DNA of 64,000 nucleotides from Antedon bifida (taxonomy: Eukaryota; Echinodermata; Crinoidea; Comatulida; Antedonidae). Below are positions 6,901 to 63,688 of this stretch, one piece after another. The stretch is from positions 14,844,085-14,908,084 of the forward strand of contig OY727103.1 of NCBI GenBank assembly GCA_963402885.1, read 5' to 3'. Every line of letters starts with the position of its first letter. Within the stretch, counting starts at the first letter, position 1. A program made the translations under genes and the position numbers. The notes under the pieces were generated by a model that worked only from the letters and a program-made list of their open reading frames with translations, made no database searches and was not told where the DNA came from.

Positions 6901-9900
6901 AAAGTAGTGGAACAGGCACTTATCCTACATCTGGTGGGACGCGAACAGGAGGATATCCAGGTAGTGGTACAGGAGGAAATGGAAATTATCCTGGTAGTGA
7001 AACGGGTACTAACGTAAATCATCAAGATCGCGGTACTGGCAGTGATGGTTATCCAAACAGTGGTACATCTGGACGATATCCAGAAAGTAGTGGAACAGGA
7101 ACTTATCCTACATCTGGTGGGACGCGAACAGAAGGATATCCAAGTAGTGGTACAGGAGGAAATGGAAATTATCCTGGTAGTGAAACCGGTACTAATGTAA
7201 ATCCAGATCGCGGTACTGGCAGTGATGGTTATCCAAACAGTGGTACTTCGGGAAGATATCCAGAAAGTAGTGGAACAGGAACTTATCCTAGCTCTGGTGG
7301 GACGCGAACAGGAGGATATCCAGTTAGTAATACAGGAGGAAACAGAAATTATCCTGGTAGTGAAACGGATACCAATGTAAATCCAGAAAACAGTGGAACT
7401 GGAATTTATCCTACGTCTGGTGGAACGCAACCAGGAGGATATCCAAGTAGTGGTACAGCAAGAAACGGTAATTATCCTGGTAGTGAAACCGGTAGCAATG
7501 TAAATCCTGATCGCGGTACTGGCAGTGATGGTTATCCAAGCAGTGGTACAGAAACCTATCCTACACCAGGTGGGACGCAAAAAGGAGGATATCCAGGTAG
7601 TGGTACAGGAGGAAATGAAAATTATCCTGGTAGTGAAACAAGTACTAATGTAAATCCAGATCGCGGTACTGGCAGTGATGGTTATCCAAACAGTGGTACA
7701 TCTGGACGATATCCAGAAAGTAGTGGAACAGGAACTTATCCTACATCTGGTGGGACGCGAACAGGAGGATATCCAGGTAGTGGTACAGGAGGAAATGGAA
7801 ATTATCCTGGTAGTGAAACTGGTACTAATGTAAATCCAGATCGCGGTACTGGCAGTGATGGTTATCCAAACAGTGGTACTTCAGGAGGATATCCAGAAAG
7901 TAGTGGAACAGGAACTTATCCTAGCTCTGGTGGGACGCGAACAGGAGGATATCCAGGTAGTAGTACAGGAGGAAATGGAAATTATCCTGGTAGTGAAACC
8001 GGTACTAATGTAAATACAGATCGCAGTACTGGCAGTGATGGTTATCCAAGCAGTGGTACAGGAACCTATCCTACACCAGGTGGGACGCAAAAAGGAGGAT
8101 ATCCAGGTAGTGGTACAGAAGGAAATGTAAATTATCCTGGTAGTGAAACCAGTACTAATGTAAATCCAGAAAACAGTGGAACTGGAACTTATCCTACATC
8201 TGGTGGGACGCGAACCGGAGGATATCCAGGTAGTGGTACAGGAGGAAATGGAAATTATCCTGGTAGTGAAACGGGTACTAATGTAAATCCAGATCGCGGT
8301 ACTGGCAGTGATGCTTATCCAAACAGTGGTACATCTGGACGATATCCAGAAAGTAGTGGAACAGGAACTTATCCTACATCTGGTTGGACGCAACAAGGAG
8401 GATACCCAGGAAGTGGTACAGCAAGAAACGGAAATTATCCTGGAAGTGAAACGGGTACTAATGTAAATCCAGATCGCGGTACTGGCAGTGATGCTTATCC
8501 AAACAGTGGCACATCTGGACGATATCCAGAAAGTAGTGGAACAGGAACTTATCCTACATCTGGTGGGACGCAACAAGGAGGATACCCAGGTAGTGGTACA
8601 GGAGTAAATACCAATTATCCTGGTAGTGAAACCGGTACCAATGTGAATCCTGATCGCGGTACAGGCATTGATGGTTATCCAAATAGTGGTACAGCTGGAC
8701 GATATCCAGAAAACAGTGGAAATGGAACATATCCTAACTCTGGAGGGACGCAACAAAGACGATATCCAACAGATAGTGGTACAGTAAGAAACGGAAATTA
8801 TCCTGGTAGTGAAACCGGTACTAATGTAAATCCAGATCACGGTACTGGCAGTGATGGTTATCCTAACAGTGGTACAGCTGGGCGATATCCAGAAAACAGT
8901 GAAACTGGAACTTATCCTAACTCAGGTGGGACGCAACAAGGAGGATATCCAGGTAGTGGTACAGGAGGAAATGGAAATTATCCGGGTAGTGAAACGGGTA
9001 CTAATGTAAATCCAGATCGCGGTACTAGCAGTGATGGTTATCCAAGCAGTGGTACTGCTGGGCGATATCCAGAAAACAGTGGTACTGGAACTTATCCTAA
9101 CTCTGGTGGGATGCAGCAAGGAGGATACCCAGGAAGTGGTACAGCTAGAAACGGAAGTTATCCTGGTAGTGAAACTGGTACTAATGTAAATCCAGATGGT
9201 TATCCAAACAGTGGTACAGCTGGACGATATCCAGAAAACAGTGGAACTGGAACTTATCCTAACTCAGGTGGGACGCAACAAGGAGGATATCCAGGTAGTG
9301 AAACCGGTACCAATGTAAATCCAGATGGCTATCCAAACAGTGGTACAGCTGGACAATATCCAGAAAACAGTGGAACTGGAACTTATCCTAACTCAGGTAG
9401 GACGCAACCAGGAGGATATCCAGGTAGTGGTACAGGAGCAAATGGAAACTATCCTGGTAGTGAAACGGGTACTAATGTAAATCCAGATCGCGGTACTGGC
9501 AGTGATGCTTATCCAAACAGTGGTACATCTGGACGATATCCAGAAAGTAGTGGAACAGGAACTTATCCTACATCTGGTTGGACGCAACAAGGAGGATACC
9601 CAGGAAGTGGTACAGCAAGAAACGGAAATTATCCTGGTAGTGAAACGGGTACTAATGTAAATCCAGATCGCGGTACTGGCAGTGATGCTTATCCAAACAG
9701 TGGCACATCTGGACGATATCCAGAAAGTAGTGGAACAGGAACTTATCCTACATCTGGTGGGACGCAACAAGGAGGATACCCAGGTAGTGGTACAGGAGTA
9801 AATACCAATTATCCTGGTAGTGAAACCGGTACCAATGTGAATCCTGATCGCGGTACAGGCATTGATGGTTATCCAAATAGTGGTACAGCTGGACGATATC

Positions 9901-12900
9901 CAGAAAACAGTGGAAATGGAACATATCCTAACTCTGGAGGGACGCAACAAAGACGATATCCAACAGATAGTGGTACAGTAAGAAACGGAAATTATCCTGG
10001 TAGTGAAACCGGTACTAATGTAAATCCAGATCACGGTACTGGCAGTGATGGTTATCCTAACAGTGGTACAGCTGGGCGATATCCAGAAAACAGTGAAACT
10101 GGAACTTATCCTAACTCAGGTGGGACGCAACAAGGAGGATATCCAGGTAGTGGTACAGGAGGAAATGGAAATTATCCGGGTAGTGAAACGGGTACTAATG
10201 TAAATCCAGATCGCGGTACTAGCAGTGATGGTTATCCAAGCAGTGGTACTGCTGGGCGATATCCAGAAAACAGTGGTACTGGAACTTATCCTAACTCTGG
10301 TGGGATGCAGCAAGGAGGATACCCAGGAAGTGGTACAGCAAGAAACGGAAGTTATCCTGGTAGTGAAACTGGTACTAATGTAAATCCAGATGGTTATCCA
10401 AACAGTGGTACAGCTGGACGATATCCAGAAAACAGTGGAACTGGAACTTATCCTAACTCAGGTGGGACGCAACAAGGAGGATATCCAGGTAGTGAAACCG
10501 GTACCAATGTAAATCCAGATGGCTATCCAAACAGTGGTACAGCTGGACAATATCCAGAAAACAGTGGAACTGGAACTTATCCTAACTCAGGTAGGACGCA
10601 ACCAGGAGGATATCCAGGTAGTGGTACAGGAGCAAATGGAAACTATCCTGGTAGTGAAACCGGTACCAATGTAAATCCAGATCACGGTAATGGCAGTGAT
10701 GGTTATCCTAACAGTGGTACAGCTGGGCGATATCCAGAAAACAGAGGAACTGGATCTTATCCTAACACTGGAGTGAGGCAACAAGGAGGATATCCAGGTA
10801 GTGGTACAGGAGGAAATGGAAATTATCCTGCTAGTGAAACGGGTACCAATGTAAATCCTGATCGCGGTACAGGCAGTGATGGTTATCCAAACAGTGGTAC
10901 TGCTGGACAATATCCAGAAAACAGTGGAACTGGAACTTATCCTAACTCAGGTGGGACGCAACAAGGAGGATATCCAGGTAGTGGTAAAGTAGCAAATGGA
11001 AATTATCCTGGTAGTGAAACCGGCACCAATGTAAATCCAGATCGCGGTACTGACAGTGATGGTTATCCTAACAGTGGTACAGCTGGACGATATCCAGAAA
11101 ACAGTGGAACTGGAACTTATCCTAACACTGGAGGGAGGCAACAAGGAGGATACCCAGGAAGTGGTACAGCAAGAAACGGAAATTATCCTGGTAGTGAAAC
11201 AGGTACCAATGTAAATCCAGATCGCGGTACTGGCAGTGATGGTTATCCAAGCAGTGGTACAGGAACCTATCCTACACCTGGTGGGACGAACCAAGGAGGA
11301 TATCCAGGTAGTGGTACAGGAGGAAATGGAAACTATCCTGGTAGTGAAACGGGTACCAATGTAAATCCAGATCGCGGTACTGGCAGTGATGGTTATCCAA
11401 ACAGTGGTACATCTGGACGATATCCAGAAAGTAGTGGAACAGGAACTTATCCTACATCTGGTGGGACGCGAACAGGAGGATATCCAGGTAGTGGTACAGG
11501 AGGAAATGGAAATTATCCTGGTAGTGAAACCGGTACTAATGTAAATCCAGATCGCGGTACTGGCAGTGATGGTTATCCAAACAGTGGTACTTCAGGAGGA
11601 TATCCAGAAAGTAGTGGAACAGGAACTTATCCTAGCTCTGGTGGGACGCGAACAGGAGGATATCCAGGTAGTGGTACAGGAGGAAATGGAAATTATCCTG
11701 GTAGTGAAACCGGTACTAATGTAAATACAGATCGCGGTACTGGCAGTGATGGTTATCCAAACAGTGGTACAGCTGGACGATATCCAGAAAACAGTGGAAC
11801 TGGAACTTATCCTAATACTGGTGGGACCCAACAAGGAGGATATCCAGGTAGTGGTACAGGAAGAAATGGAAATTATCCTGGTAGTGAAACCGGTACTAAT
11901 GTTAATCCAGATCGCAGTACTGGCAGTAATGGTTATCCAAGCAGTGGTACAGGAACCTTTCCTACACCAGATGTAACGCAAAAAGGAGGATATCCAGGTA
12001 GTGGTACAGAAGGAAATGTAAATTATCCTGGTAGTGAAACCAGTACTAATGTAAATCGAGAAAACAGTGGAACTGGAACTTATCCTACATCTGGTGGGAC
12101 GAGAACCGGAGGATATCCAGGTAGTGGTACAGGAGGAAATGGAAATTATCCTGGTAGTAAAACGGGTACTAATGTAAATCCAGATCTCGGTACTGGCATT
12201 AATGGATATCCAAACAGTGAAACATCTGGACGATATCCAGAAAGTAGTGGAACAGGAACTTATCCTACATCTGGTGGGACGCGAACAGGAGGATATCCAG
12301 GTAGTGGTACAGGAGGAACTGGAAATTATCCTGGTAGTGAAACCGGTACTAATGTAAATCCAGATCGCGGTACTGGCAGTGATGGTTATCCAAACAGTGG
12401 TACTTCGGGAAGATATCCAGAAAGTAGTGGAACAGGAACTTATCCTAGCTCTGGTGGGACGCGAACAGGAGGATATCCAGGTAGTGGTACAGGAGGAAAC
12501 AGAAATTATCCTGGTAGTGAAACGGGTACCAATGTAAATCCAGAAAACAATGGAACTGGAATTTATCCTACGTCTGGTGGAACGCAACCAGGAGGATATC
12601 CAGGTAGTGGTACAGGAGGAAATGGAAATTATCCTGGTAGTGAAACCGGTACTAATGTAAATCCAGATCGCGGTACTGGCAGTGATGGTTATCCAAACAG
12701 TGGTACTTCAGGAGGATATCCAGAAAGTAGTGGAACAGGAACTTATCCTAGCTCTGGTGGGACGCGAACAGGAGGATATCCAGGTAGTGGTACAGGAGGA
12801 AATGGAAATTATCCTGGTAGTGAAACCGGTACTAATGTAAATACAGATCGCGGTACTGGCAGTGATGGTTATCCAAACAGTGGTACAGCTGGACGATATC

Positions 12901-15900
12901 CAGAAAACAGTGGAACTGGAACTTATCTTAATACTGGTGGGACGCAACAAGGAGGATATCCAGGTAGTGGTACAGGAAGAAATGGAAATTATCCTGGTAG
13001 TGAAACCGGTACTAATGTCAATCCAGATCGCAGTACTGGCAGTAATGGTTATCCAAGCAGTGGTACAGGAACCTATCCTACACCAGATGGGACGCAACAA
13101 GGAGGATATCCAGGTAGTGGTACAGAAGGAAATGTAAATTATCCTGGTAGTGAAACCAGTACTAATGTAAATCGAGAAAACAGTGGAACTGGAACTTATC
13201 CTACATCTGGTGGGACGAGAACCGGAGGATATCCAGGTAGTGGTACAGGAGGAAATGGAAATTATCCTGGTAGTAAAACGGGTACTAATGTAAATCCAGA
13301 TCTCGGTACTGGCAGTGATGGATATCCAAACAGTGGTACATCTGGACGATATCCAGAAAGTAGTGGAACAGGAACTTATCCTACATCTGGTGGGACGCGA
13401 ACAGGAGGATATCCAGGTAGTGGTACAGGAGGAAATGGAAATTATCCTGGTAGTGAAACCGGTACTAATGTAAATCCAGATCGCGGTACTGGCAGTGATG
13501 GTTATCCAAACAGTGGTACTTCGGGAAGATATCCAGAAAGTAGTGGAACAGGAATTTATCCTAGCTCTGGTGGGACGCGAACAGGAGGATATCCAGTTAG
13601 TGGTACAGGAGGAAACAGAAATTATCCTGGTAGTGAAACGGGTACCAATGTAAATCCAGAAAACAGTGGAACTGGAATTTATCCTACGTCTGGTGGAACG
13701 CAACCAGGAGGATATCCAAGTAGTGGTACAGAAAGAAACGGTAATTATCCTGGTAGTGAAACCGGTACCAATGTAAATCCTGATCGCGGTACTGACAGTG
13801 ATGGTTATCCAAACAGTGGTACAGCTGGACGATATCCAGAAAACAGTGGAACTGGAACTTATCCTAACACTGGTGGGACGCAACAAGGAGGATATCCAGG
13901 TAGTGGTACAGGAAGAAATGGAAATAATCCTGGTAGTGAAACCGGTTTTAATGTCAATCCAGATCGCGGTACTGGCAGTGATGGCTATCCAAGCAGTGGT
14001 ACAGGAACCTATCCTACACCAGGTGGGACGCAACAAGGAGGATATCCAGGTAGTGGTACAGGAGGAAATGAAAATTATCCTGGTAGTGAAACGAGTACTA
14101 ATGTAAATCCAGATCGCGGTACTGGCAGTGATGGTTATCCAAACAGTGGTACATCTGGACGATATCCAGAAAGTAGTGGAACAGGAACTTATCCTACATC
14201 TGGTGGGACGCGAACAGGAGGATATCCAGCTAGTGGTACAGGAAGAAATGGAAATTATCCTGGTAGTGAAACCGGTACTAATGTAAATCCAGATCGCGGT
14301 ACTGGCAGTGATCGTTATCCAAACAGTGGTACTTCAGGAGGATATCCAGAAAGTAGTGAAACAGGAACTTATCCTACATCTGGTGGGACGCGAACAGGAG
14401 GATATCCAGTTAGTGGTACCGGAGGAAACAGAAATTATCCTGGTAGTGAAACGGGTACCAATGTAAATCCAGAAAACAGTGGAACTGGAATTTATCCTAC
14501 GTCTGGTGGAACGCAACCAGGAGGATATCCAAGTAGTGGTACAGCAAGAAACGGTCATTATCCTGGTAGTGAAACCGGTACCAATGTAAATCCTGATCGC
14601 GGTACTGGCAGTGATGGTTATCCAAACAGTGGTACAGCTGGACGATATCCAGAAAACAGTGGAACTGGAACTTATCCTAACACTGGTGGGACCCAACAAG
14701 GAGGATATCCAGGTAGTGGTACTGGAAGAAATGGAAATAATCCTGGTAGTGAAACCGGTTTTAATGTCAATCCAGATCGCGGTACTGGCAGTGATGGTTA
14801 TCCAAGCAGTGGTACAGGAACCTATCCTACACCAGGTGGGACGCAACAAGGAGGATATCCAGGTAGTGGTACAGAAGGAAATGTAAATTATCCTGGTAGT
14901 GAAACCAGTACTAATGTAAATCCAGAAAACAGTGGAACTGGAACTTATCCTACATCTGGTGGGACGCGAACCGGAGGATATCCAGGTAGTGGTACAGGAG
15001 CAAATGGAAATTATCCTGGTAGCGAAACGGGTACTAATGTAAATCCAGATCGCGGTACTGGCAGTGATGGATATCCAAACAGTGGTACATCTGGACGATA
15101 TCCAGAAAGTAGTGGAACAGGAACTTATCATGGCTCTGGTGGGACGCGAACAGGAGGATATCCAGGTAGTGGTACAGGAGGAAATGGAAATTATCCTGGT
15201 AGTGAAACCGGTACTAATGTAAATACAGATCGCGGTACTGGCAGTGGTGGTTATCCAAACAGTGGTACAGCTGGACGATATCCAGAAAACAGTGGAACTA
15301 GAACTTATCCTAATACTGGTGGGACGCAACAAGGAGGATATCCAGGTAGTGGTACAGGAAGAAATGGAAATTATCCTGGTAGTGAAACCGGTACTAATGT
15401 CAATCCAGATCGCGGTACTGGCAGTGATGGTTATCCAAGCAGTGGTACAGGAACCTATCCTACACCAGGTGGGACGCAAAAAGGAGGATATCCAGGTAGT
15501 GGTACAGGAGGAAATGTAAATTATCCTGGTAGTGAAACCAGTACTAATGTAAATCCAGAAAACAGTGGAACTGGAACTTATCCTACATCTGGTGGGACGC
15601 GAACCGGAGGATATCCAGGTAGTGGTACAGGAGCAAATGGAAAGTATCCTGGTAGTGAAACGGGTACTAATGTAAATCCAGATCGCGGTACTGGCAGTGA
15701 TGGATATCCAAACAGTGGTACATCTGGACGATATCCAGAAAGTAGTGGAACAGGAACTTATCCTACATCTGGTGGGACGCGAACAGGAGGATATCCAGGT
15801 AGTGGTACAGGAGGAAATGAAAATTATCCTGGTAGTGAAACCGGTACTAATGTAAATACAGATCGCGGTACTGGCAGTGATGGTTATCCAAACAGTGGTA

Positions 15901-18900
15901 CAGCTGGACGATATCCAGAAAACAGTGGAACTAGAACTTATCCTAATACTGGTGGGACCCAACAAGGAGGATATCCAGGTAGTGGTACAGGAAGAAATGG
16001 AAATTATCCTGGTAGTGAAACCGGTACTAATGTCAATCCAGATCGCAGTACTGGCAGTGATGGTTATCCAAGCAGTGGTACAGGAACCTATCCTACACCA
16101 GGTGGGACGCAAAAAGGAGGATATCCAGGTAGTGGTACAGAAGGAAATGTAAATTATCCTGGTAGTGAAACCAGTACTAATGTAAATCCAGAAAACAGTG
16201 GAACTGGAACTTATCCTACATCTGGTGGGACGCGAACCGGAGGATATCCAGGTAGTGGTACAGGAGGAAATAGAAATTATCCTGGTAGTGAAACGGGTAC
16301 TAATGTAAATCCAGATCGCGGTACTGGCAGTGATGGTTATCCAAACAGTGGTACAGCTGGACTATATCCAGAAAACAGTGGAACTGGAACTTATCCTAAC
16401 ACTGGTGGGACGCAACAAGGAGGATATCCAGGTAGTGGTACAGGAAGAAATGGAAGTTTTCCTGGTAGTGAAACTGGTAAAAATGTCAATCCAGATCGCG
16501 GTACTGGCAGTGATGGTTATCCAAGCAGTGGTACAGGAACCTATCCTACACCAGGTGGGACGCAACAAGGAGGATATCCAGGTAGTGGTACAGGAGGAAA
16601 TGAAAACTATCCTGGTAGTGAAACGGGTACTAATGTAAATCCTGATCGCGGTACTGGCAGTGATGGTTATCCAAACAGTGGTACTTCAGGAAGATATCCA
16701 GAAAGTAGTGGAACAGGAACTTTTCCTACATCTAGTGGGACGCGAACAGGAGGATATCCAGGTAGTGGTACAGGAGGAAATGGAAATTATCCAAGTAGTG
16801 GAACCGGTACTAATGTAAATCCAGATCGCGGTACTGGCAGTGATGGTTATCCAAACAGTGGTACTTCAGGAAGATATCCAGAAAGTAGTGGAACAGGAAC
16901 TTTTCCTACATCTAGTGGGACGCGAACAGGAGGATATCCAGGAAGTGGTAGAGTAGGCAATGGAAATAACCCTGGCAGGGAAACGGGTACTAATGTAAAT
17001 CCAGAAAACAGTGGAACTGGAACTTATCCTACATCTGGTGGGACGCGAACAGGAGGATATCCAGGTAGTGGTACAGGAGGAAATGGAAATTATCCAAGTA
17101 GTGGAACCGGTACTAATGTAAATCCAGATCGCGGTACTGGCAGTGATGGTTATCCAAGTATTGGTACTTCTGGAAGATATCCAGAAAGTAGTGGAACAGG
17201 AACTTTTCCTACATCTAGTGGGACGCGAACAGGAGGATATCCAGGAAGTGGTAGAGTAGGAAATGGAAATTACCCTAGTAGTGAAACGGGTACTAATGTA
17301 AATCCAGAAAACAGTGGAACTGGAACTTATCCTACATCTGGTGGGACGCGAACCGAAGGATATCCAGGTAGTGGTACAGGAGGAAATGTAAATTATCCAA
17401 GTAGTGGAACCGGTACTAATGTAAATCCAGATCGCGGTACTGGCAGTGATGGTTATCCAAATAGTGGTACTTCAGGAAGATATCCAGAAAGTAGTGGAAC
17501 AGGAACTTATCCTACATCTGATGGGACACGAACTGGAGGATATCCAGGTAGTGGTACAGGAGGAAATGGACATTATCCTGGTAGTGAAACCGGTACTAGA
17601 CCAGATGGGTACAAGCCCGATAGCAGAACAATGGATGAAAATCCTCAAAAATTTCCAGAAAGTGGCTTAAATAGGAATGGTTATGTCAGTCGATTGAGAC
17701 CTACCGGTGGTACAGGAATGTATCCAGTTAGCGGCTCACAAAGAAAAGGATACTTAGACAGAGCATCACCAACTGGTTATCCAATTAGTGGTTCCGGTAT
17801 ATTCCCAAATAGAAGAACTGGCCCAGAACCATACCCAGACAAGAATACTGAAAGTGAATCAGTCCATCCAGGTGGAGACTCAACAGAGAACCCATATATT
17901 AATACTAATGACAAAAACTATCCAGATAATAGAGGAAATTCACAGAGTGGAGTTGGAAGAAATCATGAGGACGGTAGTGAAACTGATAGAGATACTAATC
18001 CATATGGTACGGAAACAGAAGGAATGTACCCAGATAATGGTAATGAGGGTTTAGTGACGCCCAGTAGCAGTTCAGTCCATCCAGAGAGTGGAACCAAAAC
18101 ATTGGTTGCAGGCACAAGTACTAACTCTAACACAGGTACACGACCAACTACTCATAATGGTGACGAAGTACATCCAAGTAGTGGCCCAGATGGTACTGCA
18201 ACTGTAGCAAATGGGGGTAACTGTTGTTTTATATATTTATACTTTGTAATGAGATATTTATATTTTATTTTAAAATATTCATATTTTGTGCCTATTCACT
18301 CACCATAATTTTGGCCGGATATTACATATGCACGATTTTTATTGAACCTTTCTTTTGCAGACAACAACGAATGTCCAGATAATTGTCCCTTAGTCGACGA
18401 TAAAGTATGTGGTACGGATGGTATTACCTATGTCTCGCGCTGTATTTTGCAAGCTGTGGCATGCAGAAGGAATTCAAATACCAAAATAGCATATTTAGGA
18501 CCTTGTGAGGGAGATATTGCTCCTGTAATGCCAGACCCTCCAATAAATGGCCCAGTGGAGGCTGAACCCACAAGACGTATGTTTGAATTTCTTTATTATT
18601 ACTATTATTATTATTATTATTTTCTATTCATAAGTATGCCACACCATCTCCATGCAGGATTTTGAATCCACACCTAGTATCTTCACATTTCGAAAGGATT
18701 TTAGTATGGTTCAACTATATTAATACATTGTGTAAAATACATTTTTTTATTATTATAAAAACAATAATTATTATGTTACTCACATACAGCAGCGAAAGGT
18801 GTTTGTAGAGATAGCTGTCCACTTCAAGCCCGTAACTCTCGTGTGTGTGGTACCGATGGAAACGACTATCCATCCGCGTGTGTTTTGGAAATATTTGCTT

Positions 18901-31739: not shown

Positions 31740-31805
31740 GCCAGATATATATCTGATGAAGGGCTAGAGTGTTGCCCGAAAGCTCTGCTAATTTTTCTGG
31801 CTGTT
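31740..31805 (+). ncRNA. Type I hammerhead ribozyme candidate in a Penelope-like repeat
   Basis: The core is complete: CUGAUGA at 31753-31759, GAAA at 31778-31781 and a UA cleavage site at 31789-31790. Stem II is GGGC (31761-31764) with GCCC (31774-31777), with one extra A before it. Stem III is A-G-C (31781-31783) with G-C-U (31787-31789) around a UCU loop. The outer part of stem I is GCCAG (31740-31744) with CUGGC (31797-31801). A very short stem III is known for hammerheads in Penelope-like elements. Confidence 0.65.
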
Positions 31806-31935
31806 TTACTTTATCGTTTTGATTTAGCTTTTTTCATATTTTATTTTGTATCTCTATTGAGATCCAGCCATTTATACCCACAGCATTGTCTTTATTTTCA
31901 GTAATTTGCCTTTGGATTTATATATATATATGATT
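31750..31935 (+). mobile_element. Penelope-like terminal repeat fragment, copy 1
   Basis: The sequence from the hammerhead core to the (TA) run at 31932 is repeated with few changes at 61238-61410, including the shared tail cagcattgtc..ttcagtaatttgcctttgg. It lies in the first intron of paralogue B and carries no protein part. Confidence 0.55.
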
Positions 31936-48829: not shown

Positions 48830-49575
48830 AGAGGCAGACCATGAAAAATAAGGAATGAAAAGAAAAAGAATGAAAAGAAAAGGAATGTAGAAGAGGCTGG
48901 CAGAACATCAAAATCATGGAATGAAAAGAAAAGGGATGAACAAGAGGCGGACCATGAAAAACATGGAATGAAAGAAAAGGGATGTATAAGAGGCTAGCAG
49001 ACCATGAACAACATGGAATGAAAGAAAAGGGATGTATAAGAGGCTAGCAGACCATGAACAACATGGAATGAAAGAAAAGGGATGTAGAAGAGGCTAGCAG
49101 ACCATGAACAACATGGAATGAAAAGAAAGGGGATGAAGAGGAGGCTGGCAGACCATGAACAACATGGAATGAAAGAAAAGGGATGTAGAAGAGGCTAGCA
49201 GACCATGAACAACATGGAATGAAAAGAAAGGGGATGAAGAGGAGGCTAGCAGATCATGAACAACATGGAATGAAAAGAAAGGGGATGAAGAGGAGGCTAG
49301 CAGATCATGAACAACATGGAATGAAAAGAAAGGGGATGAAGAGGAGGCTGGCAGACCATGAAAAACATAGAATGAAAGAAAAGGGATGTAGAAGAGGCTA
49401 GCAGACCATGAACAACATGGAATGAAAAGAAAGGGGATGTACAAGAGGCTAGCAGACCATGAACAACATGCAATGAAAAGAAAGGGGATGAAGAGGAGGC
49501 TGGCAGAGCATGAAAAACATAGAATGAAAAGAAAAGGGATGAACAAGAGGCAGACCATGAAAAACATAGAATGAA
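48830..49575 (+). repeat. Minisatellite, about 50-bp unit, about 15 copies
   Basis: The unit runs acatggaatgaaa(a)gaaa(a)gg..gatg..gaggct(a/g)gcagaccatgaaca. Consecutive copies at 48961, 49011 and 49061 are exactly 50 bp apart. Open frames on both strands over it (such as 49094-49567) come from the repeat. Confidence 0.9.
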
Positions 49576-50129
49576 AAAAAAGATAGAAGCTAGATAGTTA
49601 TTAAATGAATATAGCATATAAATAAATACAAATTATATAATAATTAAAACCAAAAAAAAATAATTAAAAATAGATGTCACTGAATAGTAATAGAACTGAT
49701 GAATAGTAAAAATAACCTAAGAACAATATTTTGAAAGTAAATAATGCTTCACTTATGCTTAATTTTTTTTGATGAGATCATTCTTAAATCATATGGTAAA
49801 TTATTCCATAGTTTTGGGCCTTGATAATTTTTTGTTAGGAACAAAATTGAGGAAGCATTAAGTTTAATGGGTTATTAAGTCTTGTGTTTCTAGTGTGCAT
49901 TATAGGTTTAAAGTATAAGTTTATGATATGTGGTAATCTACAAAAAAAATCTGAAACAAATTGTAATACTGTACATACAATTCATAAACTTATATAAACA
50001 AAGGCGCAGAAGGTGATGCAAAATCAGAAAAAAGTAGCACATCGAATTAAAAGTATTTGATGCAAATATGTTAAATGAGTGTTTCCCAAGACTTCTATCT
50101 AGGCATATGGCCTACCATAAATTAAACTT

Positions 50130-53521: not shown

Positions 53522-53679
53522 TTAGTTTTTCTTGAGGGCTTTAGTCATGCCTCGCTTCTTAGCCAACTCTTTCATCAAGTTCTTTGAAGCCAACGCCTTT
53601 TTGGCTGCCATCATCTTTTTGGCCGCCATCATCTTCTTAGCCGCCATCATACGAGCAACCTTCTTTGTCTTCTTGTTGC
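53522..53679 (-). CDS. Terminal exon: cationic Lys/Ala/Met peptide
   Basis: It starts after a TTTAATAG acceptor and ends at TAA (53524-53522), with AATAAA on the minus strand at 53499-53494. The 51 residues include 17 Lys, 2 Arg and only 1 Glu, with three copies of MMAAKK. The alternating Lys pairs and Ala/Met pairs would make a charged helix, as in some antimicrobial or nucleic-acid-binding peptides. I do not recognise a named family. Confidence 0.75.
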
Positions 53680-56600
53680 CTATTAAAGTAGATTAAGAAC
53701 AAGTATAAGTATACAAGAAGTAAATAACGTAACCTCCTAATATGACAACACTTTCTACCGACCTAAAAAAATCGACATCCTAATCAACTTATATTAAAGA
53801 TGTTTAATTATATAATTCAAAATAAATCAAAGGATTATTTTAAATTTGAAATGAAAATATAAGTGATTTTATTTTTCACGATGCTTTTTTCATGTCATAT
53901 TCGACACAAATTCCAAGCAAAATGTTTTTAATTGATGATCTGTTAACGCAACTCAATGAGGTAGGCAAAACGCAATATAAGTTGACCAATCACAAGCAAT
54001 AGTTCAGCTGATCCAACGCGTCGGGATTGGTCAATACTAATTTATTATGACCGCACATTCACGAACAAAAAATTGCTGTCAACCAACATTGAATCTCAGC
54101 CAACTGTTTCTGTTTCTATATTTTTAAAATATATATAACATTTTACCCAAGTAATAAAAACAATTTAAGGTACAATTTTTAACTTGCACAAATTGAAACC
54201 TGTTGCTGGTGGAGGTGGGCATACAAATTGTAAAATCAACATTTCAAAATTATTATTACAGTGCTGAACCGGAATTACGAAAAAGATGGACGTTTCGGAA
54301 CCATCATGGAACCATTCAAATGAGTAAATAAAATATAAAGTGGAATGTTGATTTATTTGGTTTTTTTACGTTATAATATTATTCAAAAACCTAAATATAC
54401 AATCGCGAAAATATATTGACAATTACAGTTCTACAGTTATTTTTATTATTATTGGTGAAATACAATTTATATATCAGAAGTGGCTCGTGAAAATAAAAAT
54501 GAGTTTAAAAAAAACTTCAACTTGCCGTGACTATCCGCGTCGTCGCCAGTGGAAACGTTGCCTGTAAACAAACGTTTATATTTCTCAATTGACAGAAGAC
54601 ACGTCCGAGGGAATAATAATAATTTAAAAATCAAAATTGATAATCTTTTAATTAAAGAAAAACAACATTTAAATTGTCTTAGAATCACAATTGACACCCA
54701 ATTTAACTGGAAACAGCAATTAACTCAAATTCAAGAAATATTGGAGCAATGAGAAAAATATATTTTAACAACAAATATTCTTTTTTCATTATAATACCAT
54801 GGTTCTTCAGTATTTATCGTATTGTAACTTGTTATGGGGAACTGTTACAAATAAACATTTCCAATGTCCATGGACTACTACGGTAACTACAAAATTGGAC
54901 CATCTTTTTATATTACAGAAAAAAGCGCTTCGTATTTGTTTCAATCAACTTATCGAGCCCATACCAAACCACTCTTTTCTAAATTTAAAACAAATATATT
55001 TGATATCATAATTTTCAATCTGCTTTCTTTGTTAAAATACGAAAATAATAAACTCCCAAATCATTTACTAACTACTTTATGAAACATAGTCAACTACATT
55101 ATTTAAACTGCATCTGCAAATTCTAAATTCAAATTAGTATATAAAAGAACTATTTACTTTCAAGAATTATGATGAACGTTAAATAAGACCAGTTAAGATC
55201 GGTTTAAATAGAAATTGTAGCTTTGTTTTCTTTTATTTATTATTAGTTTATGTATTTTTTTTCTTTTTCGTATTTAATGTTATATTTGGGTTGGGTCAAA
55301 CTTATATGACTCTCCACCCCCTCTATTCCCCTACCCCCACATGATTACTTCATTGTATTTATTATCTTGTATGTATTTTGTGGAAATAAAATAGAATAGA
55401 TTTTTAATTGAATAATTAAGGTAAATATTAGTATTGACAAACTAATAATATTTCATTCTTGTTTACATTATCAGTTGAAGAGCAATTTTACAACATGGTA
55501 ACAAATAGTATTTATAAGAAAAAAAAACAAAAAACCGTCTAAAACTAGGCCTATATAATAAAAAAACATAAACCTACCATCATTCCTCTCCTCCATATCA
55601 CCTATAAAAAAACAAATAACATGGTTATATTATGATAATGTCAATTCAACACAATTATTAACATTATTATTTGACTGTATCATTATCAGATAAACCATAT
55701 ATGTCAACTTCAAGTTTTATTGGTTTACTATCAAAGAACTACTTATATTATTATACGAATCGAAACCAGAAGAAATGTTTTCATTATAAAAATAATAGTA
55801 TATATTTATCATGAATGAGTAATCTGTTACTTTTTTTTATTTTCTGAAGTTTAAATAAATTCCGGTAATGTTTGACTAGGACAGTAAAAAATACTGGAGC
55901 AAAATATTTTTGTCTTCAATGGTTTAACAGATTTTTATTCGATAGATGTATTGCATAATAACATGGAGGGAATATAGTTTATCTATTCATAAACGCGGTG
56001 AACCTACCTCCTTCATCCCTCTTGTTCGGATCTGTAAAAGGAAAATATTAATATTATGATAATATTATTATAACTTTTTTTAAAACCTTTTTACCAGTTG
56101 TTGGAATACAACAATAACAGTTATTAATTATTATGTCATTTTTCGATAAAACTTGAGCTTGCGCGTAAGTGAATTCACCAATCATAAGATTTTTGTCTTC
56201 CATGGTTTAACAGGTTTTTATTCGATAGACCCAAAACAATTATCAAAGGGCCCATAAGAAAGGGAACTATTAGTAAAAAATAATCGGTAACAATTGCTAA
56301 GTTATAATTTGACAATATGGATCACTCGCCCATGCAGGTTGTTAATAATTTTAATTTTATCTCATTAGGCCGAATTCCATAAATTATTTATTCTATGAAA
56401 ATAATATAAACCCTATTTTATTTTAAATCATTGTACGTTATTTTAGAACCATGATAAAATGTCACTTTTGTTGTGTTAAAAACTTACCGCCAGGAGTCTG
56501 GTCCCCTGTGAAAATAATCATAAAACAACGTAATTCAAATTATTCCATATCAAAAATGTTAACATATTATTTTTCACAAGTTTATTTGTGTAGAAAATTC

Positions 56601-59600
56601 AGGGGATTTCATAGGTTACAGTGGCACAAGCCAAAACAATTATCAAAGGGCCCATAAGAAAAGGTTTTTTGGAAAAAATAATCGGTAACAATTATTGCTA
56701 AGTTATAATTTGACAATATGGATCACTCACCCATGCAGGTTGTTAATAATTTTAATTTTATCTCATTAGGCCGAATTCCATAAATTATTTATTCTATGAA
56801 AATAATATAAACCCTATTTTATTTTAAATCATTGTACGTTATTTTTAGAACCATGGTAAAATGTCACTTTTGTTGTGTTAAAAACTTACCGACAGGAGGC
56901 TGTTGCACTGTGAAAATAATCATAAAACCACTTATTTCAAATTGTTCCATATCAAAAATGTTATCACAAGTTTATTTTTGTAGAAAATTCAGGGGATTTC
57001 ATAGGTTACAGTGGCACAAGCCAAAACAATTATCAAAGGGCCCATAAGAAAGGGAACCGTTAGTAAAAAATAATCGGTAAAAATTGCTAAGTTATAATTT
57101 GACAATATGGATCACTCGCCCATGCAGGTTGTTAATAATTTTAATTTTATTTCATTAGGCCGAATTCCATAAATTATTTATTCTATGAAAATAATATAAA
57201 CCCTATTTTATTTTAAATCATTGTACGTTATTTTAGAACCATGATAAAATGTCACTTTTGTTGTGTTAAAAACTTACCGCCAGGAGTCTGGTCCCCTGTG
57301 AAAATAATCATAAAACAACGTAATTCAAATTATTCCATATCAAAAATGTTAACATATTATTTTTCACAAGTTTATTTGTGTAGAAAATTCAGGGGATTTC
57401 ATAGGTTACAGTGGCACAAGCCAAAACAATTATCGAAGGGCCCATAAGAAAAGGTTTTTTGGAAAAAATAATCGGTAACAATTATTGCTAAGTTATAATT
57501 TGACAATATGGATCACTCGCACATGCAGGTTGTTAATAATTTTAATTTTATCTCATTAGGCCGAATTCCATAAATTATTTATTCTATGAAAATAATATAA
57601 ACCTTATTTTATTTTAAATCATTGTACGTTATTTTTAGAACCATGGTAAAATGTCACTTTTGTTGTGTTAAAAACTTACCGACAGGAGGCTGTTGCCCTG
57701 TGAAAATAATCATAAAACAACGTAATTCAAATTATTCCATATCAAAAATGTTAACATATTATTTTTCACAAGTTTATTTGTTTAGAAAATTCAAGGGATT
57801 TCATAGGTTACAGTGGCACAAGCCAAAACAATTATCAAAGGGGCCATAAGAAAAGGTTTTTTGGAAAAAATAATCGGTAACAATTATTGCTAAGTTATAA
57901 TTTGACAATATAGATCACTCGCCCATGCAGGTTGTTAATAATTTTAATTTTATCTCATTAGGCCGAATTCCATAAATTATTTATTCTATGAAAATAATAT
58001 AAACCCTATTTTATTTTAAATCATTGTACGTTATTTTTAGAACCATGGTAAAATGTCACTTTTGTTGTGTTAAAAACTTACCGACAGGAGGCTGTTGCCC
58101 TGTGAAAATAATCATAAAACCACTTATTTCAAATTGTTCCATATCAAAACTTTTATCACAAGTTTATTTTTGTAGAAAATTCAAGGGATTTCATAGGTTA
58201 CAGTGGCACAAGCCAAAACAATTATCAAAGGGCCCATAAGAAAGGGAACCGTTATTAAAAAATAATCGGTAAAAATTGCTAAGTTATAATTTGACAATAT
58301 GGATCACTCACCCATGCAGGTTGTTAATAATTTTAATTTTATCTCATTAGGCCGAATTCCATAAATTATTTATTCTATGAAAATAATATAAACCCTATTT
58401 TATTTTAAATCATTGTACGTTATTTTAGAACCATGATAAAATGTCACTTTTGTTGTGTTAAAAACTTACCGCCAGGAGTCTGGTCCCCTGTGAAAATAAT
58501 CATAAAACAACGTAATTCAAATTATTCCATATTAAAAATGTTAACATATTATTTTTCACAAGTTTATTTGTGTAGAAAATTCAGGGGATTTCATAGGTTA
58601 CAGTGGCACAAGCCAAAACAATTATCAAAGGGCCCATAAGAAAGGGAACCGTTAGTAAAAAATAATCGGTAAAAATTGCTACGTTATAATTTGACAATAT
58701 GGATCACTCGCCCATGCAGGTTGTTAATAATTTTAATTTTATCTCATTAGACTGAATTCCATAAATTAATTATTCTATGAAAATAATATAAAACCAATTT
58801 TATTTTATACATTGTACGTTATTTTAGAACCATGGTAAAATGTCACCTTTGTTGTGTTAAAAACTTACCGAAAGGTAACTGGTTCCTTGTGAAAATAATC
58901 ATAAAAAAACTTATTTAAAATTATTTCTTATCAAAAATGTTATGATAATATTAATATTATTATAATATTCTATGTGGATTAAAAGTAACTTTTTTTTAAA
59001 CCTTTTTACCAGTTGTTGGAATACAACAATAATTATTTATTAATTATTTTTCGATAAAACGTTGAGCTTGCGCGTAAGTGAATTCACCAATCATAAGATT
59101 TTTTCCTCCATGGTTTAACAGATTTTGATTCAATAGATGTATAACATAACATGGAGGAAAAATGATAATAAGTTATGGTCGTATTGAACAACATAACACG
59201 ATTAATCTACTATAAAAAAATGTATTTTATTTCAATTTATTCAGCCTGTATTTTATTATATTCAAACATAATTATGCTTTCCCCACATTTTGAAAATTAC
59301 ATTTATAAGCAATATACTTTTTTATCAGTTGATAAAATATGTTTCAGATAATAGGTTAGGAAGCGGTTCATGAAAAGAAGAACAGTAAAAAACGTCAACT
59401 TACCATCGCTGCTGCCGCTTCCATCTGTAAACAAAAGTGTAATCATTACCATAATGCCTTATGCAGTTTAAGTTTTCTCGTATATAAGAGAACATAACAC
59501 GATTAATCTACTATAAAAAATGTATTTTATTTCAATTTATTCAGCCTGTATTTTATTATATTCAAACATAATTATGCTTTCCCCACATTTTGAAAATTAC

Positions 59601-61395
59601 ATTTATAAGCAATATACTTTTTTATCAGTTGATAAAATATGTTTCAGATAATAGGTTAGGAAGCGGTTCATGAAAAGAAGAACAGTAAAAAACGTCAACT
59701 TACCATCGCTGCTGTAGCTGCTTTCACCTGTAAACAAAAGTGTAATCATTACCATAATGCCTTATGCAGTTTAAGTTTTCTCGTATATAAGAGAAACAGA
59801 CTTCTGTTCATTTACTGATTATGAATTATAATAAATATTGCATTAGTATTGACAAACTAATGATATTTCATTATTGTTTACATTAAATCAGTTGACAGAG
59901 CAATATACAACATGAACATAATTGTATATATTTATTATGACGCATGACTAATCTGTAATTTGATTGGACGATTATTTGATTTTCTGATTATTATAAATTA
60001 TTATGTAATTTTTCGCTAAAACTTTAAAGCTTTAGCATGTGTGTAAGTGAATTCACAAATCACAGTTCGAAGATCCATCCATAATAATGTTCAAATTGCT
60101 CGCCTGTTGCGTTTACCATGGAGAAAAAACAAATAGTTTTGTTTTTTCTCAATGGTTTAACAGATTTTTATTCGATAGATGTATTACATAATAACATGGA
60201 GGAAAATGATAATACGTAATGGTCATATTGGACAACATAACACGCGCACGATTATAATCTATTATACTAGAAATTGCAAAGTACAAGCATAGAGCGTATA
60301 GTGAATCACTTGCAAGCAGGGCCCTAAAACCGAATGTCTATATTCGAACGTTTCTCATTGGATAACAAAAGACCTCCCATGGACTAGGAGTTTCGAAGGG
60401 TGTATAAATGAAATATAAGATTCGTGACTTTAATCAAATAAAAGAAACGTTAACAACGTGTAGTTCTGTAATCGCAAAATCGCAAAATTATGATAATATT
60501 CTATGTGGATTAAAAGTAACTTTTTTTTAAAAACCTTTTTACCAATAATTATTTATTAATTAGTATGTCATTTTTCGATAAAACGTTGAGCTTGCGCGTA
60601 AGTGAATTCACCAATCATAAGATTTTTTTCTCCATGGTTTAACAGATTTTGATTGGATAGATATATTACATAACATAATAACATAGAGGAAAAATGATAA
60701 TAAGTTATGGTCGTATTGAACAACAGAACACGATTAATCTAATATAAACAAATTTATTTTATTTCATCCTGTATTTTATTATATTCAAATATAATGATGC
60801 TTTCCCCAAAATTACATTTATAAGCAATATACTTTTTTTATCAGTTGATAAAATATGTTTCAGATAATAAGTTAGGAAGCTGCTCATGAAAAGAAGAACA
60901 GTAAAAAACGTCAACTTACTATAGATGCTGTAGCTTTCACCTGTAAACAAAAGTGTAATCATTACCATAATGCCTTATGCAGTTTAAGTTTTCTCGTATA
61001 TAAAAGATACAGACAATTATTTTGTATCCACACATTTCTGGGTTTCAAGTTCAAGCATAATTGTGTTATATTTTAAATGTATTAATACTCACAGCATTGT
61101 CATTTTACAGTAATTTGCCTTTGGATTTATATATATTTTCTACTGTTTGTATCAATTTTGATCTGATTTTGCTGTAATTATTGAGGGTACTTTGGATAAC
61201 TTTACCAAATTACTTTATCCAAATTCCCTCACTTGCACTGATGAAGGGCTAGTGTTGCCCGAAAGCTCTGCTAACTTTTCTGGCTGTTTACTTTATCGTT
61301 TTGATTTAGCTTTTCGCTTTTTTTTTTGTATCTCCATTGAGATCCAGCCACTGATACCCACAGCATTGTCATTTTTTTCAGTAATTTGCCTTTGG

Positions 61396-61451
<56 letters not shown>

Positions 61452-63688
61452 AATCTGCAGACAGTACTGTTTCGATCTCATTAGATCTCGTCAGTGCAGC
61501 TCAGGTTTCGAAATGAAATGTACCGCAGAACTGGCACAATATAGGCTGAGCCAGGTATGCGGGACATGGTACACTGATTATGAACACAAAGAGTGCACAA
61601 GCTCAACGAGCGTGCTTTGCAAAATGCTAATAGTATTCACAACAAAAATGCATCGTTTCGAAATGAAGAGTGCTCTACAAAACAACATACTATATATGCA
61701 TATAGCAGAAAGTAGAGGAGCGTAATATCCAATCTGCAGACATATATCATAAAATTTAATCAACGTCTTCCAGAAAACAAAATACAATAGATACCGCGAT
61801 ATCCGAGGTAAAGATAATATATGGTAAAGAATTGCATTAGTATTGATTTTTTTTTCGGTAAAAAAAAAACCCTATTTTTAACCGGTTTTGATATTGAACG
61901 TTTTGGATTAAATGTTTAAAATGACAATGACAATTTCTCTTACCATCCTCTTTCTTGTTCACATCAACTAAAAGAAACATTATAAGATAACATGATTATA
62001 ACAGTATTTATTATATGACGCATGCGCATAATTGGATTTAATAATAGGGTTTCTTTAAAATCTGTTAAGTTTTAAGTTTGTATATAGTTAAAGTTAATAA
62101 ATCTGGGATTTTTCTAATAACTTGTTTACAATATAATAGGCCTACAATTTATTTTATTTTAATTTATTTAGCCTGTATTATTTATTATATTTAAACATAA
62201 TGATGCTTTCCTCACACCATTTTATACATACACTTTTTTTTTATCAGTTGGTAAAATATGTTTAAGATAATAAGTTATGAAGCGGCTCATGTAAAGAAGA
62301 ACAGTAAAAAACGTCAACTTACAAACGCTGCTGCTGCTGATATCTGTAAACAAAATTGTAATCATTACCATAATGCCTTATGCAGTTTAAGTTTTCTCGT
62401 ATATAAAAAAGATTCAAAGTGAATTATTATCATTTTACTGATTATGAATTATGATAAATATTACATGAGTATTGACAAACTAATGATATTTCATTATTGT
62501 TTATATTATCAGTTGACAGAGCAATTATACAACATGAAAATAATAGTATATATTTATCATGAATGAGTAATCTGTTACTTTTTTTTATTTTCTGAAGTTT
62601 AAATAAATTCCGGTAATGTTTGACTAGGACAGTAAAAAATACTGGAGCAAAATATTTTTGTCTTCAATAGTTTAACAGATTTTTATTCGATAGATGTATT
62701 ACATAATAACATGGAGGAAAAATAGTTTATATTCATAAACGCGGTGAACCTACCAGCAGCCCTCTTGTTCTGTAGTGATTTATTTTATATTTTATTGATT
62801 TGATTTTTTAAAAATTATTATTACAGTACTAAACCAGTATTATTTATTATAGTAAAACTTAATACTGTAATGGTATTACGGAAATATATTGAATTACACT
62901 TACGCTTGAGCATGCGCGTAAGTGAATTCACCAATCACAAGGGACAGTCCGAAGATCCATCAATGATTGGTCAAATTACTTTTACGTTTACCATAGAAGA
63001 AACATTTTTTTAATATTTTTCCCTCCCGGGTTTTTATTCGATAGATATTACATAATAACATGGAGGAAAATAATAATACGCAATGGTCATATTGGACAAC
63101 ATAACACGATTATAATCTATTATAATAGAAATTGCAAAATATAAGTGAAAAAAGACAAAACCGAAATATGTTTTGGCTAATAAAGTTAGGAAGCGGCTCA
63201 TGTAAAGAAAAACAGTAAAAAAAAACGTCAACTTACCATCGCTGCTGCCGCCGCTGCCTGTAAACAAAAGTGCAATCATTATTATACGCCTCATACAGTT
63301 TAAGTTTTCTCGTATATAAAAAAAGAGTCAAAATGAAGTATTATCATTTACTGATTATGAATTATGATAAATATTGCATTAGTTTTAACGATCTAATTTA
63401 TATTTCATTATTGTTTACATTATCAGTTGACAGAGCAATTATACAACATGAAAATAATAGTATATATTTATCATGAATGAGTAATCTGTTACTTTTTTTT
63501 ATTTTCTGAAGTTTAAATAAATTCCGGTAATGTTTGACTAGGACAGTAAAAAATACTGGAGCAAAATATTTTTGTCTTCAATAGTTCTACAGATTTTGAT
63601 TCGATAGATGTATTACATAATAACATGGAGGAAAAATAGTTTATATTCATAAACGCGGTGAACCTACCAGCAGCCCTCTTGTTCTGTT
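53522..63688 (-). CDS. Micro-exon gene ending in a cationic Lys/Ala/Met-rich peptide (5' end outside window)
   Basis: On the minus strand I place, in transcript order: 63688-63668, 63257-63237, 62343-62323, 61967-61944, 60940-60920, 59727-59704, 59424-59404, 58487-58470, 58099-58082, 57697-57680, 57295-57278, 56907-56890, 56505-56488, 56031-56008, 55601-55578, 54561-54526 and 53679-53522. The first sixteen are 18-36 nt, multiples of three, and phase 1 on both sides; most end in a split Gly codon. They encode short Ser-rich, Gln/Pro-rich or acidic blocks (GSGGSSD, GESSYSSD, GQQPPV, DMEERND). All acceptors are AG; one donor is GC. The last exon encodes 51 residues with 17 Lys. A secreted, proteolytically matured peptide is plausible, but no signal peptide is in view. 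Function unknown. Confidence 0.7.
54526..54561 (-). CDS. 36-nt micro-exon with a GC donor
   Basis: The acceptor is GTTTACAG, as in several other micro-exons of the gene; the donor is GCAAGT. It encodes NVSTGDDADSH, acidic, with one possible N-glycosylation site (NVS). Confidence 0.65.
54600..55395 (+). mobile_element. 5'-truncated, decayed LINE (jockey/CR1-like) 3' end
   Basis: Broken frames contain motifs of the region after the reverse transcriptase of jockey-type elements: a YCNLLWG stretch, LFILQKKALRI, then HTKPLF and NKLPNHLL in another frame. It is frameshifted and ends in an aataaaataga-type tail near 55390. It sits in antisense orientation in an intron of the micro-exon gene. The protein part is dead. 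Confidence 0.65.
56290..58900 (-). repeat. Tandem array of 388/402-bp units, each carrying one 18-nt micro-exon
   Basis: Micro-exon ends at 56488, 56890, 57278, 57680, 58082, 58470 and 58869 are spaced 402, 388, 402, 402, 388 and 399 bp. Two exon types occur: A (GDQTPG) at 56488, 57278 and 58470; B (G/V-QQPPV) at 56890, 57680 and 58082. A and B together form a 790-bp higher unit (56488 to 57278; 57680 to 58470). Intron sequence is almost identical between units, so the duplication is recent. Plus-strand open frames of 68-75 codons repeated here are shadows. Confidence 0.9.
58869..58885 (-). pseudogene. Decayed micro-exon (17 nt)
   Basis: This copy has cacaag in place of cacagg at the acceptor. 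The AG is shifted by one base and leaves a 17-nt exon that would break the frame, so it is probably skipped. It is the most diverged unit at the array's edge. Confidence 0.55.
59160..59790 (-). repeat. Tandem duplication of about 300 bp carrying micro-exons
   Basis: The stretches around exons 59404-59424 and 59704-59727 repeat almost exactly at 300-bp spacing (gattaatctactataaaa to tcgtatataagag). Related copies surround the exons at 60920, 62323 and 63237. Confidence 0.8.
61092..61450 (+). mobile_element. Penelope-like terminal repeat, copy 2, with (TA)n
   Basis: The tail cagcattgtcatttt..ttcagtaatttgcctttggatt occurs twice in direct order (61092 and 61361). Between the two are a hammerhead core (CTGATGA 61238-61244, GAAA 61261-61264, TA 61272-61273) and sequence shared with 31805-31935. 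The strand that should pair in stem I is replaced, so this ribozyme copy is probably inactive. It ends in a TA microsatellite (61398-61449). Confidence 0.6.
62754..62769 (-). pseudogene. Decayed micro-exon with a lost acceptor
   Basis: Against the intact copy at 63688-63668, the acceptor cag has become cac (two-base change). The next AG would leave a 16-nt exon and break the frame. The donor and inner sequence (AACAAGAGGGCTGCTG) are unchanged, so the exon is probably not used. Confidence 0.5.

Follow-up and report, generated by a model that had tools for sequence, protein, structure and literature searches.

A putative micro-exon-type gene of an echinoderm and its predicted secreted, charge-balanced product

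The 64,000-nucleotide stretch of contig OY727103.1 of Antedon bifida analysed here (hereafter the window) carries, in its last fifth or so, a run of minus-strand exons so short that the locus raises two questions, namely whether these exons belong to a genuine gene and, if they do, what kind of product that gene would make. The original prediction, drawn up from the sequence of the window, had joined seventeen such exons, bordered by AG and GT with a single GC and with all internal exons in phase 1-1, into a micro-exon gene. Both reading of the sequence and a splice-motif scan confirmed this pattern for sixteen well-supported exons, whose acceptors are all AG, whose donors are GT apart from one GC (54561-54526), and whose 15 internal members all begin and end in phase 1. 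The seventeenth, presumably 63688-63668, has a doubtful acceptor; it fell below the threshold of the first scan but was chosen by the gene finder described below. We call the whole unit gene A. In what follows, positions up to 64000 are those of the window, and larger ones continue to the right on the same contig (64001 is contig position 14908085).

The evidence assembled here indicates that gene A is very probably a real gene. What it encodes is less certain, and we put the chance somewhat better than even that the product is a disordered protein of balanced charge and variable composition, which would be secreted and made from a micro-exon-type gene of an echinoderm.

Architecture and coding character of gene A

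As modelled, gene A consists of 39 exons that run on the minus strand from 78510 to 53522, over about 25 kb, and encode 386 residues; about 14.5 kb of the locus lies to the right of the window, up to 78510. The signal-peptide exon comes first and a bridging exon of 28 nt second; they are followed by 36 symmetric phase 1-1 exons (exons 3-38, of 18, 21, 24, 30, 36, 48 or 60 nt) and by a lysine-rich terminal exon, with an AATAAA about 22 nt past the stop codon (Table 1). Exons of 36 nt or less make up 34 of the 39 and 66% of the coding sequence, and the 37 internal exons, none longer than 60 nt, make up 79%. All but one of these 37 are symmetric, 36 start in phase 1 and the remaining one in phase 0, and together they represent 25 distinct sequences. 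The 38 introns have a median length of about 440 nt (range about 210-1192); 37 of them interrupt the frame in phase 1 and the remaining one in phase 0. A signal-peptide exon ending in phase 1 had been sought in the right flank as decisive for secretion. Such an exon is indeed present (78510-78424), but it ends in phase 0, and it is the following 28-nt exon, running from phase 0 to phase 1, that would set phase 1 ahead of the cassettes.

The splice-motif scan returned 38 candidates. The 39-exon model omits the doubtful pair at 70109 and 63688 as well as two copies that break the frame, one at 58885 and one, with its duplicate, at 62769; 62769-62754 is a frame-lost relative of 63688-63668, 0.9 kb apart from it. 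Three further candidates were dropped: 75044-75015 (30 nt, score 9.2), which is AT-rich and was passed over by the gene finder; 72727-72710, which is an alternative acceptor of exon 10; and one seen by eye near 73340, which has a poor donor and creates a stop at the junction.

The coding character of the chain was examined through the spacing of strong AG...GT pairs 9-66 nt apart, collected at a score threshold of 10.5 on the minus strand between 53.4 and 79.5 kb. The spacing was divisible by three in 37 of 40 pairs (24 of 27 distinct sequences), as compared to none of six on the plus strand of the same region and 12 of 33 (minus) and 9 of 27 (plus) in 62 kb elsewhere. At other thresholds the counts for the gene region were 38/53 (9.5), 38/46 (10) and 30/32 (11). 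Three of the 40 pairs did not follow this pattern: exon 2, an alternative pair lying within exon 1, and an alternative at exon 7 that is longer than the exon. When the exons are spliced, the reading frame of gene A contains its own stop only, while the other two frames contain 16 and 28 stops.

We also applied a gene finder that combines splice motifs with base composition, was given the first and last exons, and used weights set by hand after the locus had been viewed. On the real sequence it scored 156.3 with a path of 40 exons, which leaves out exon 4, whose acceptor is weak, and includes 70109 and 63688. Of 20 dinucleotide-preserving shuffles, three yielded no path, and the other 17 scored -0.3 or lower with 14-16 exons, two to seven of them symmetric. 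Five other real stretches gave, in turn, no path and scores of 39.1, 98.3, 128.7 and 15.5. Their paths had 4-14 symmetric exons, and the stretches with high scores may contain other genes. Chance is thus an unlikely source of the exon chain, which behaves as coding sequence with micro-exon-gene architecture, as had been proposed.

The proposal that any subset of exons can be skipped without loss of frame proved, on the sequence of the joins, nearly but not strictly true. Among the 703 forward joins between phase-1 exons, 701 are free of stops and change the split codon at most, whereas the joins of exon 3 to 6 and of exon 4 to 6 make a stop.

Duplication, divergence and a paralogue

Exons of gene A have been copied together with their introns, as seen for the 18-nt units, the Ser family, the Tyr/Trp family and a block of nine exons. 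Six intact 18-nt Q/P units stand in tandem about 390-400 nt apart from 58487 to 56488, and a decayed one is present at 58885. The nine-exon block is a tandem duplication of 6421 bp whose copies show a single internal mismatch, and six exons of the first copy lie inside the window; copy number of this unit may differ among individuals. Two repeat units were searched for across the genome (315.6 Mb), with a search that scores the best candidates only and skips very common words, and all matches (8 of 8 and 17 of 17) fell at the gene A locus. Because both searched units matched this locus alone, an origin of the units as dispersed repeats is disfavoured.

The copies have diverged in a manner that respects the frame. 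Homologous accepted exons differ in length only by steps of three (60/21/24; 18/30/48; 21/24), a comparison from which the decayed 16- and 17-nt copies were excluded, and 50 of 62 near-flank indels, counted pairwise, are not multiples of three. In the Ser family, exons differ at 4-10 of 21 positions and their flanks at 0-13 of 125-130, with p<0.05 in 8 of 10 pairs (for example, 10/21 against 5/130, p=1e-6, and 7/21 against 3/130, p=3.5e-5). In the 18-nt family, the nine pairs between types differ at 4-5 of 18 exon positions and at 15-21 of 368 intron positions (7-8 of 228 in pairs with the last unit, which is truncated), all with p<0.05 (for example, 4/18 against 17/368, p=0.012), and all four differences in inner codons alter the amino acid. 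That exons outpace their flanks in the two tested families suggests, but does not prove, diversifying selection.

A different view of the locus is that of a non-functional tandem array in decay, in which splice motifs were kept through recent copying. The decayed copies at 58885 and 62769, the doubtful one at 63688 and the near identity of the duplication copies would all fit such an array. It would, however, have to retain 386 codons without a stop and an AATAAA past the stop codon, to change length in threes although some flanks are only 44-77% identical, and to have a paralogue with matching ends, and we consider it very improbable.

This paralogue, gene B, lies at 86747-82721 (flank coordinates), 4.2 kb upstream of gene A. 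It starts with a signal exon of 87 nt (MNRLAVMILAVAVFATLAEAKTFAKKEEE) and a 34-nt exon running from phase 0 to phase 1, and ends with a basic tail exon of 155 nt. Its middle was modelled as five phase 1-1 exons of 177, 27, 54, 33 and 72 nt. Those of 27 and 54 nt keep phase 1-1 in all listed paths of the gene finder; the 177-nt exon, rich in Cys, was positioned by eye. The signal regions of the two genes are 82% identical over 72 nt, with surrounding matches of chance length only, and their tails are 46% identical in alignment. Signal peptide, bridging exon and basic tail are common to both, and the middles differ; the conservation of the ends, together with the freedom of the middle, suggests a single family, and in gene A the middle would have been filled with micro-exons. 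A search with the signal peptide recovered both genes and a weak match on contig C9 (E 0.27), and a search with the Cys-rich exon found B and one weak match containing a stop (E 0.88). The tail of A found A only and that of B found B only; because each tail search missed the other gene, distant family members could be missed.

Table 1. Features of the gene A locus. Exons are numbered in the direction of transcription.
Feature	Position	Strand	Description
Exon 1	78510-78424	minus	87 nt, MNRVAVVILAVAVIATLIEARPNLANKLT, phase 0 out, signal peptide
Exon 2	right flank	minus	28 nt, phase 0 to 1, bridging exon
Exon 24	63237..63257	minus	21 nt, Ser family, GSGGSSD
Exon 25	62323..62343	minus	21 nt, Ser family, DISSSSV
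Exon 26	61944..61967	minus	24 nt, dibasic linker FDVNKKED; duplicate at 68388
Exon 27	60920..60940	minus	21 nt, Ser family, GESYSIY
Exon 28	59704..59727	minus	24 nt, Ser family, SESSYSSD
Exon 29	59404..59424	minus	21 nt, Ser family, DGSGSSD
Exon 30	58470..58487	minus	18 nt, GDQTPG
Exon 31	58082..58099	minus	18 nt, GQQPPV
Exon 32	57680..57697	minus	18 nt, GQQPPV
Exon 33	57278..57295	minus	18 nt, GDQTPG
Exon 34	56890..56907	minus	18 nt, VQQPPV
Exon 35	56488..56505	minus	18 nt, GDQTPG, Q/P family
Exon 36	56008..56031	minus	24 nt, phase 1-1, dibasic linker DPNKRDEG; diverged copy at 74618
Exon 37	55578..55601	minus	24 nt, phase 1-1, acidic DMEERND
Exon 38	54526..54561	minus	36 nt, phase 1-1, GC donor, acidic NVSTGDDADSH
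Terminal exon 39	53522..53679	minus	158 nt, phase 1 in, TAA stop, GNKKTKKVARMMAAKKMMAAKKMMAAKKALASKNLMKELAKKRGMTKALKKN
Possible extra exon EQNKRAA	63668..63688	minus	21 nt, phase 1-1, pyrimidine-poor acceptor; doubtful, outside the 39
Probable pseudo-exon, decayed 18-nt unit	58869..58885	minus	17 nt, out of frame, good donor, weak acceptor
Probable pseudo-exon, decayed linker unit	62754..62769	minus	16 nt, out of frame; also has a duplicate
Tandem duplication	one copy 59055 to ~65476, the other to ~71898	minus	6421 bp, nine exons each

The predicted product and its possible roles

The signal peptide (MNRVAVVILAVAVIATLIEA), judged by eye, has a hydrophobic core and an A at position -1, and gene B has a similar one. 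The pro-region that follows comprises 314 residues, with 75 Ser, 56 Asp+Glu and a charge of about -28, whereas the last 52 residues hold 17 Lys and 2 Arg, with a charge of about +18 (+17.7); the acidic and basic parts expected by the original prediction were therefore found. Past the signal peptide, the product contains no Cys. Its cassettes fall into recurring types: Ser/Asp/Gly (GSGGSSD), Tyr/Trp (SYSSYSSYSSYPWYPS, DSYLPSSWF, LGLVWW), Pro/Gln (GDQTPG, GQQPPV), acidic, and dibasic linkers (DQNKRDA, SFQNKKE, YDVNKKEE, FDVNKKED, DPNKRDEG). Dibasic pairs in the pro-region are confined to the linker exons and exon 2.

The charges had been taken to mean that the pro-region neutralises a cationic peptide. 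The charge pattern agrees with this idea, but the tail shows no amphipathic helix: its helical moment (18-residue) peaks at 0.32, a value equalled or exceeded by 844 of 1000 shuffles (for the tail of gene B, 0.48 and 298 of 1000). An amphipathic antimicrobial helix, with a moment no better than that of shuffles, is unsupported.

We infer from the sequence that gene A is transcribed, alternatively spliced, secreted and functional. In the mechanism that we favour, the gene would be transcribed and its product exported, and the spliceosome would include or skip cassettes in frame, so that the variants would share their ends and differ in the middle. The mostly disordered chain, with an acidic middle (-28) and a basic tail (+18), would associate with itself or other polymers in an extracellular secretion; the changing middle would set the interactions and the tail would serve as a constant binding end. 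The expected setting would be an outward-exposed secretion (mucus, adhesive, cuticle or defence) that favours a varied repertoire. The competing explanations differ from this one mainly in the role that they give to the secreted product.

One of them treats the product as a multi-peptide precursor, like neuropeptide or host-defence precursors, in which NKKE, NKRD and RKKE linkers are sites for prohormone-type convertases, serine-rich, aromatic and lysine-rich peptides are released, and exon choice decides which peptides are made. The arrangement of the linkers lends itself to this explanation, since outside exon 2 all dibasic pairs of the pro-region lie in linker exons (3, 4, 7, 9, 10, 14, 17, 23, 26 and 36) placed around peptide-coding exons, and cleavage at the linkers would release a tail of charge +15 along with fragments that reach 65 residues at most and are in some cases very short. 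We nevertheless regard it as unlikely. KK, which convertases in general cut weakly, accounts for most of the linker sites, and an acidic residue comes next at most sites; conservation of the linker exons is not detectably above that of their flanks; and the tail is not amphipathic. A test for purifying selection on the linker exons was not significant, with differences at 20/87 exon positions against 132/477 flank positions (p=0.43).

Another explanation, to which we likewise give a low probability, is a structural or mineral matrix protein of the elastin or SCPP kind, that is, a disordered chain with near-constitutive splicing in which duplication mainly alters length. The genes for elastin and the caseins have symmetric exons of small size, and elastin also has phase-1 cassettes and Lys modules; gene A resembles these genes and SCPP genes in its small symmetric cassettes and in encoding what would be a secreted, low-complexity, fast-evolving deuterostome protein. 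The abundance of Ser and acidic residues (75 and 56 of 314), the Tyr/Trp-rich and Pro/Gln-rich blocks, and a repetitive 5750-residue frame rich in Gly, Thr, Tyr and Pro, 35 kb off on the opposite strand, would also suit a matrix protein. Yet S-x-E, the phosphorylation motif of SCPPs, is depleted in the pro-region (1 against 4.6), and the fast divergence of the exons suits a repertoire more than a scaffold. The introns of SCPP genes are all phase 0 (PMC7807025), while 37 of 38 introns in gene A are phase 1. Phase therefore excludes membership of the SCPP family, and there is no S-x-E enrichment.

Several observations weigh against a secreted, selected repertoire, some of them concerning the gene model. 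Single exons, which are too short for phase to show, have no clear preference for phase 1 (stop-free candidates in phases 0/1/2 number 39/41/28 on the minus strand and 5/7/4 on the plus strand, in 114 kb), and in the best-scoring paths for gene B some middle exons are phase 0 and the Cys-rich exon is skipped. The 6421-bp duplication could be very recent or an assembly error. Others concern selection: the Ser-family test, which did not include the 60-nt member, failed to reach significance in 2 of 10 pairs (p=0.14); within types of the 18-nt family, the exons of the six pairs differ at 0-1 positions, which is no excess over the flanks; the p values of exon pairs are not independent, owing to shared ancestry and gene conversion; near flanks may be held by splicing; and the linker exons show no detectable extra conservation. 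As to the protein, the single S-x-E motif in 314 residues falls below the 4.6 expected from 2000 shuffles, neither A nor B matched a Pfam family at the cut-off (DUF1600 matched A below it, E 0.025), and an NCBIfam search with A gave no match. A phosphoprotein signature in the pro-region was rejected, as S-x-E is depleted and S-x-x-D/E is at chance.

Host, known systems and neighbouring sequence

The original prediction, which knew of no such gene in a marine deuterostome, had implied a host of that kind, and the mitochondrial genome points to an echinoderm. On a mitochondrial contig of 15.8 kb, COX1 was identified by family search and the other genes were named by eye. COX1 is identical at 326 of 412 residues to the chain of the solved structure 1occ, which we take to be mammalian COX1, and AAA stands at Asn sites of that chain in all four codons of the compared stretch (COX1 has five AAA). 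The code also fits ATA = Ile and AGR = Ser; such a code is common to echinoderms and flatworms. ND1, ND2 and ND6 lie on the strand opposite COX1, and the order COX1-COX2-ATP6-COX3-ND3-ND4 is echinoderm-like, not flatworm-like. A flatworm origin of the DNA was rejected on gene strands, gene order and COX1 similarity, and strands, order, code and COX1 similarity together point to an echinoderm host. Separately, at 5579-5942 of this contig a tRNA-Arg (tcg) adjoins an ND4L-like frame between ND4 and ND5, an unusual position among the echinoderm orders known to us.

The echinoderm antimicrobial precursors of the centrocin and strongylocin type have a signal peptide, an acidic pro-region and a cationic mature end, are encoded in few exons and yield Cys-stabilised peptides. 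Gene A shares the first three traits but differs in a tail without Cys and without an amphipathic moment. Bicycle proteins carry Cys-Tyr-Cys motifs, and here too the product of gene A, lacking Cys after the signal peptide, is unlike them. Almost all internal exons of the aphid bicycle genes are described as starting in phase 2 (PMC9168663), unlike those of gene A (phase 1 in 36 of 37); the likeness to bicycle and megacycle genes (the latter with more than 100 microexons) lies in one-phase micro-exons, fast-evolving putative effectors and a structure that outlasts sequence (PMC9168663).

The micro-exon genes (MEGs) of schistosomes were the original comparison. About 80% of the MEG coding region lies in short symmetric exons of 6-36 bp (PMC5825161), and MEGs, also reported in tapeworms (PMC7653826), are said to appear confined to platyhelminths (PMC4350168). 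MEGs have a signal peptide, runs of short symmetric exons, frame-keeping skipping, tandem gene and exon duplication, and a mature region that changes faster than the signal peptide (PMC5825161, PMC4350168, PMC7653826, PMC8293314), and gene A resembles them in these traits. A MEG encodes a signal peptide or a membrane anchor, the former being predicted for gene A, and yields protein variants by alternative splicing, which the stop-free joins of gene A would permit. Gene A differs in its echinoderm host and in internal exons of 18-60 nt rather than 6-36 nt. The comparison thus held for the architecture, but the class is wider than schistosomes, with MEGs in tapeworms (PMC7653826) and a phase-2 analogue in aphids (PMC9168663). 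Searches of gene A against Pfam and NCBIfam, at their cut-offs, gave no sequence relation to MEG families.

By analogy, gene A would work like the MEG and bicycle designs, and it is not classed as a member of either. A search of the open-access literature with echinoderm terms found no echinoderm micro-exon gene of such design, and none appeared in the titles and abstract openings that a more general search displayed. Because similar designs exist in flatworms and aphids, an independent origin in an echinoderm is possible, and the design may have arisen in that way. The fuller proposal, that an independent deuterostome micro-exon system at one locus splices 36 positively selected phase-1 cassettes, many of them born by local duplication of exon and intron, into a large repertoire of secreted, charge-balanced proteins whose signal peptide and polycationic tail are fixed, is tentative, and we rate it at a little under an even chance.

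As to the surrounding sequence, the stop-free frame of 5750 residues mentioned above occupies 1056-18308 of the window on the plus strand and consists of Gly/Thr/Tyr/Pro/Asn/Ser repeats (for example, GNYPGSETGTNVNPDRGTGSDGYPNSGT). Its first 1000 and last 999 residues gave no Pfam match, and it looks like an exon of a giant structural or mucin-like protein. A tandem repeat, approximately (HGMKRKGMKRRLADHEQ)n on the plus strand, lies at 49094-49597. The repeat at 61238-61411, in an intron of gene A and with a duplicate at 67659, is 92% identical to 31753-31931, and a short element like that at 78930-79076 of the flank has many copies in both orientations, at 22381-52860 of the window and 80.9-107.1 kb in the flank.

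If this account of gene A is true, micro-exon architecture would have arisen more than once, and outside parasitic flatworms, whose MEGs have been read as a parasite device to vary what the host sees. Its origin would, moreover, be visible at one locus, where units were copied with their introns in a symmetric frame and the peptide blocks diverged while the introns stayed alike. The combination of a signal exon, a 0-to-1 bridge, phase 1-1 cassettes and a basic tail would provide a signature by which to search for further genes of this kind, which are likely missed by annotation.

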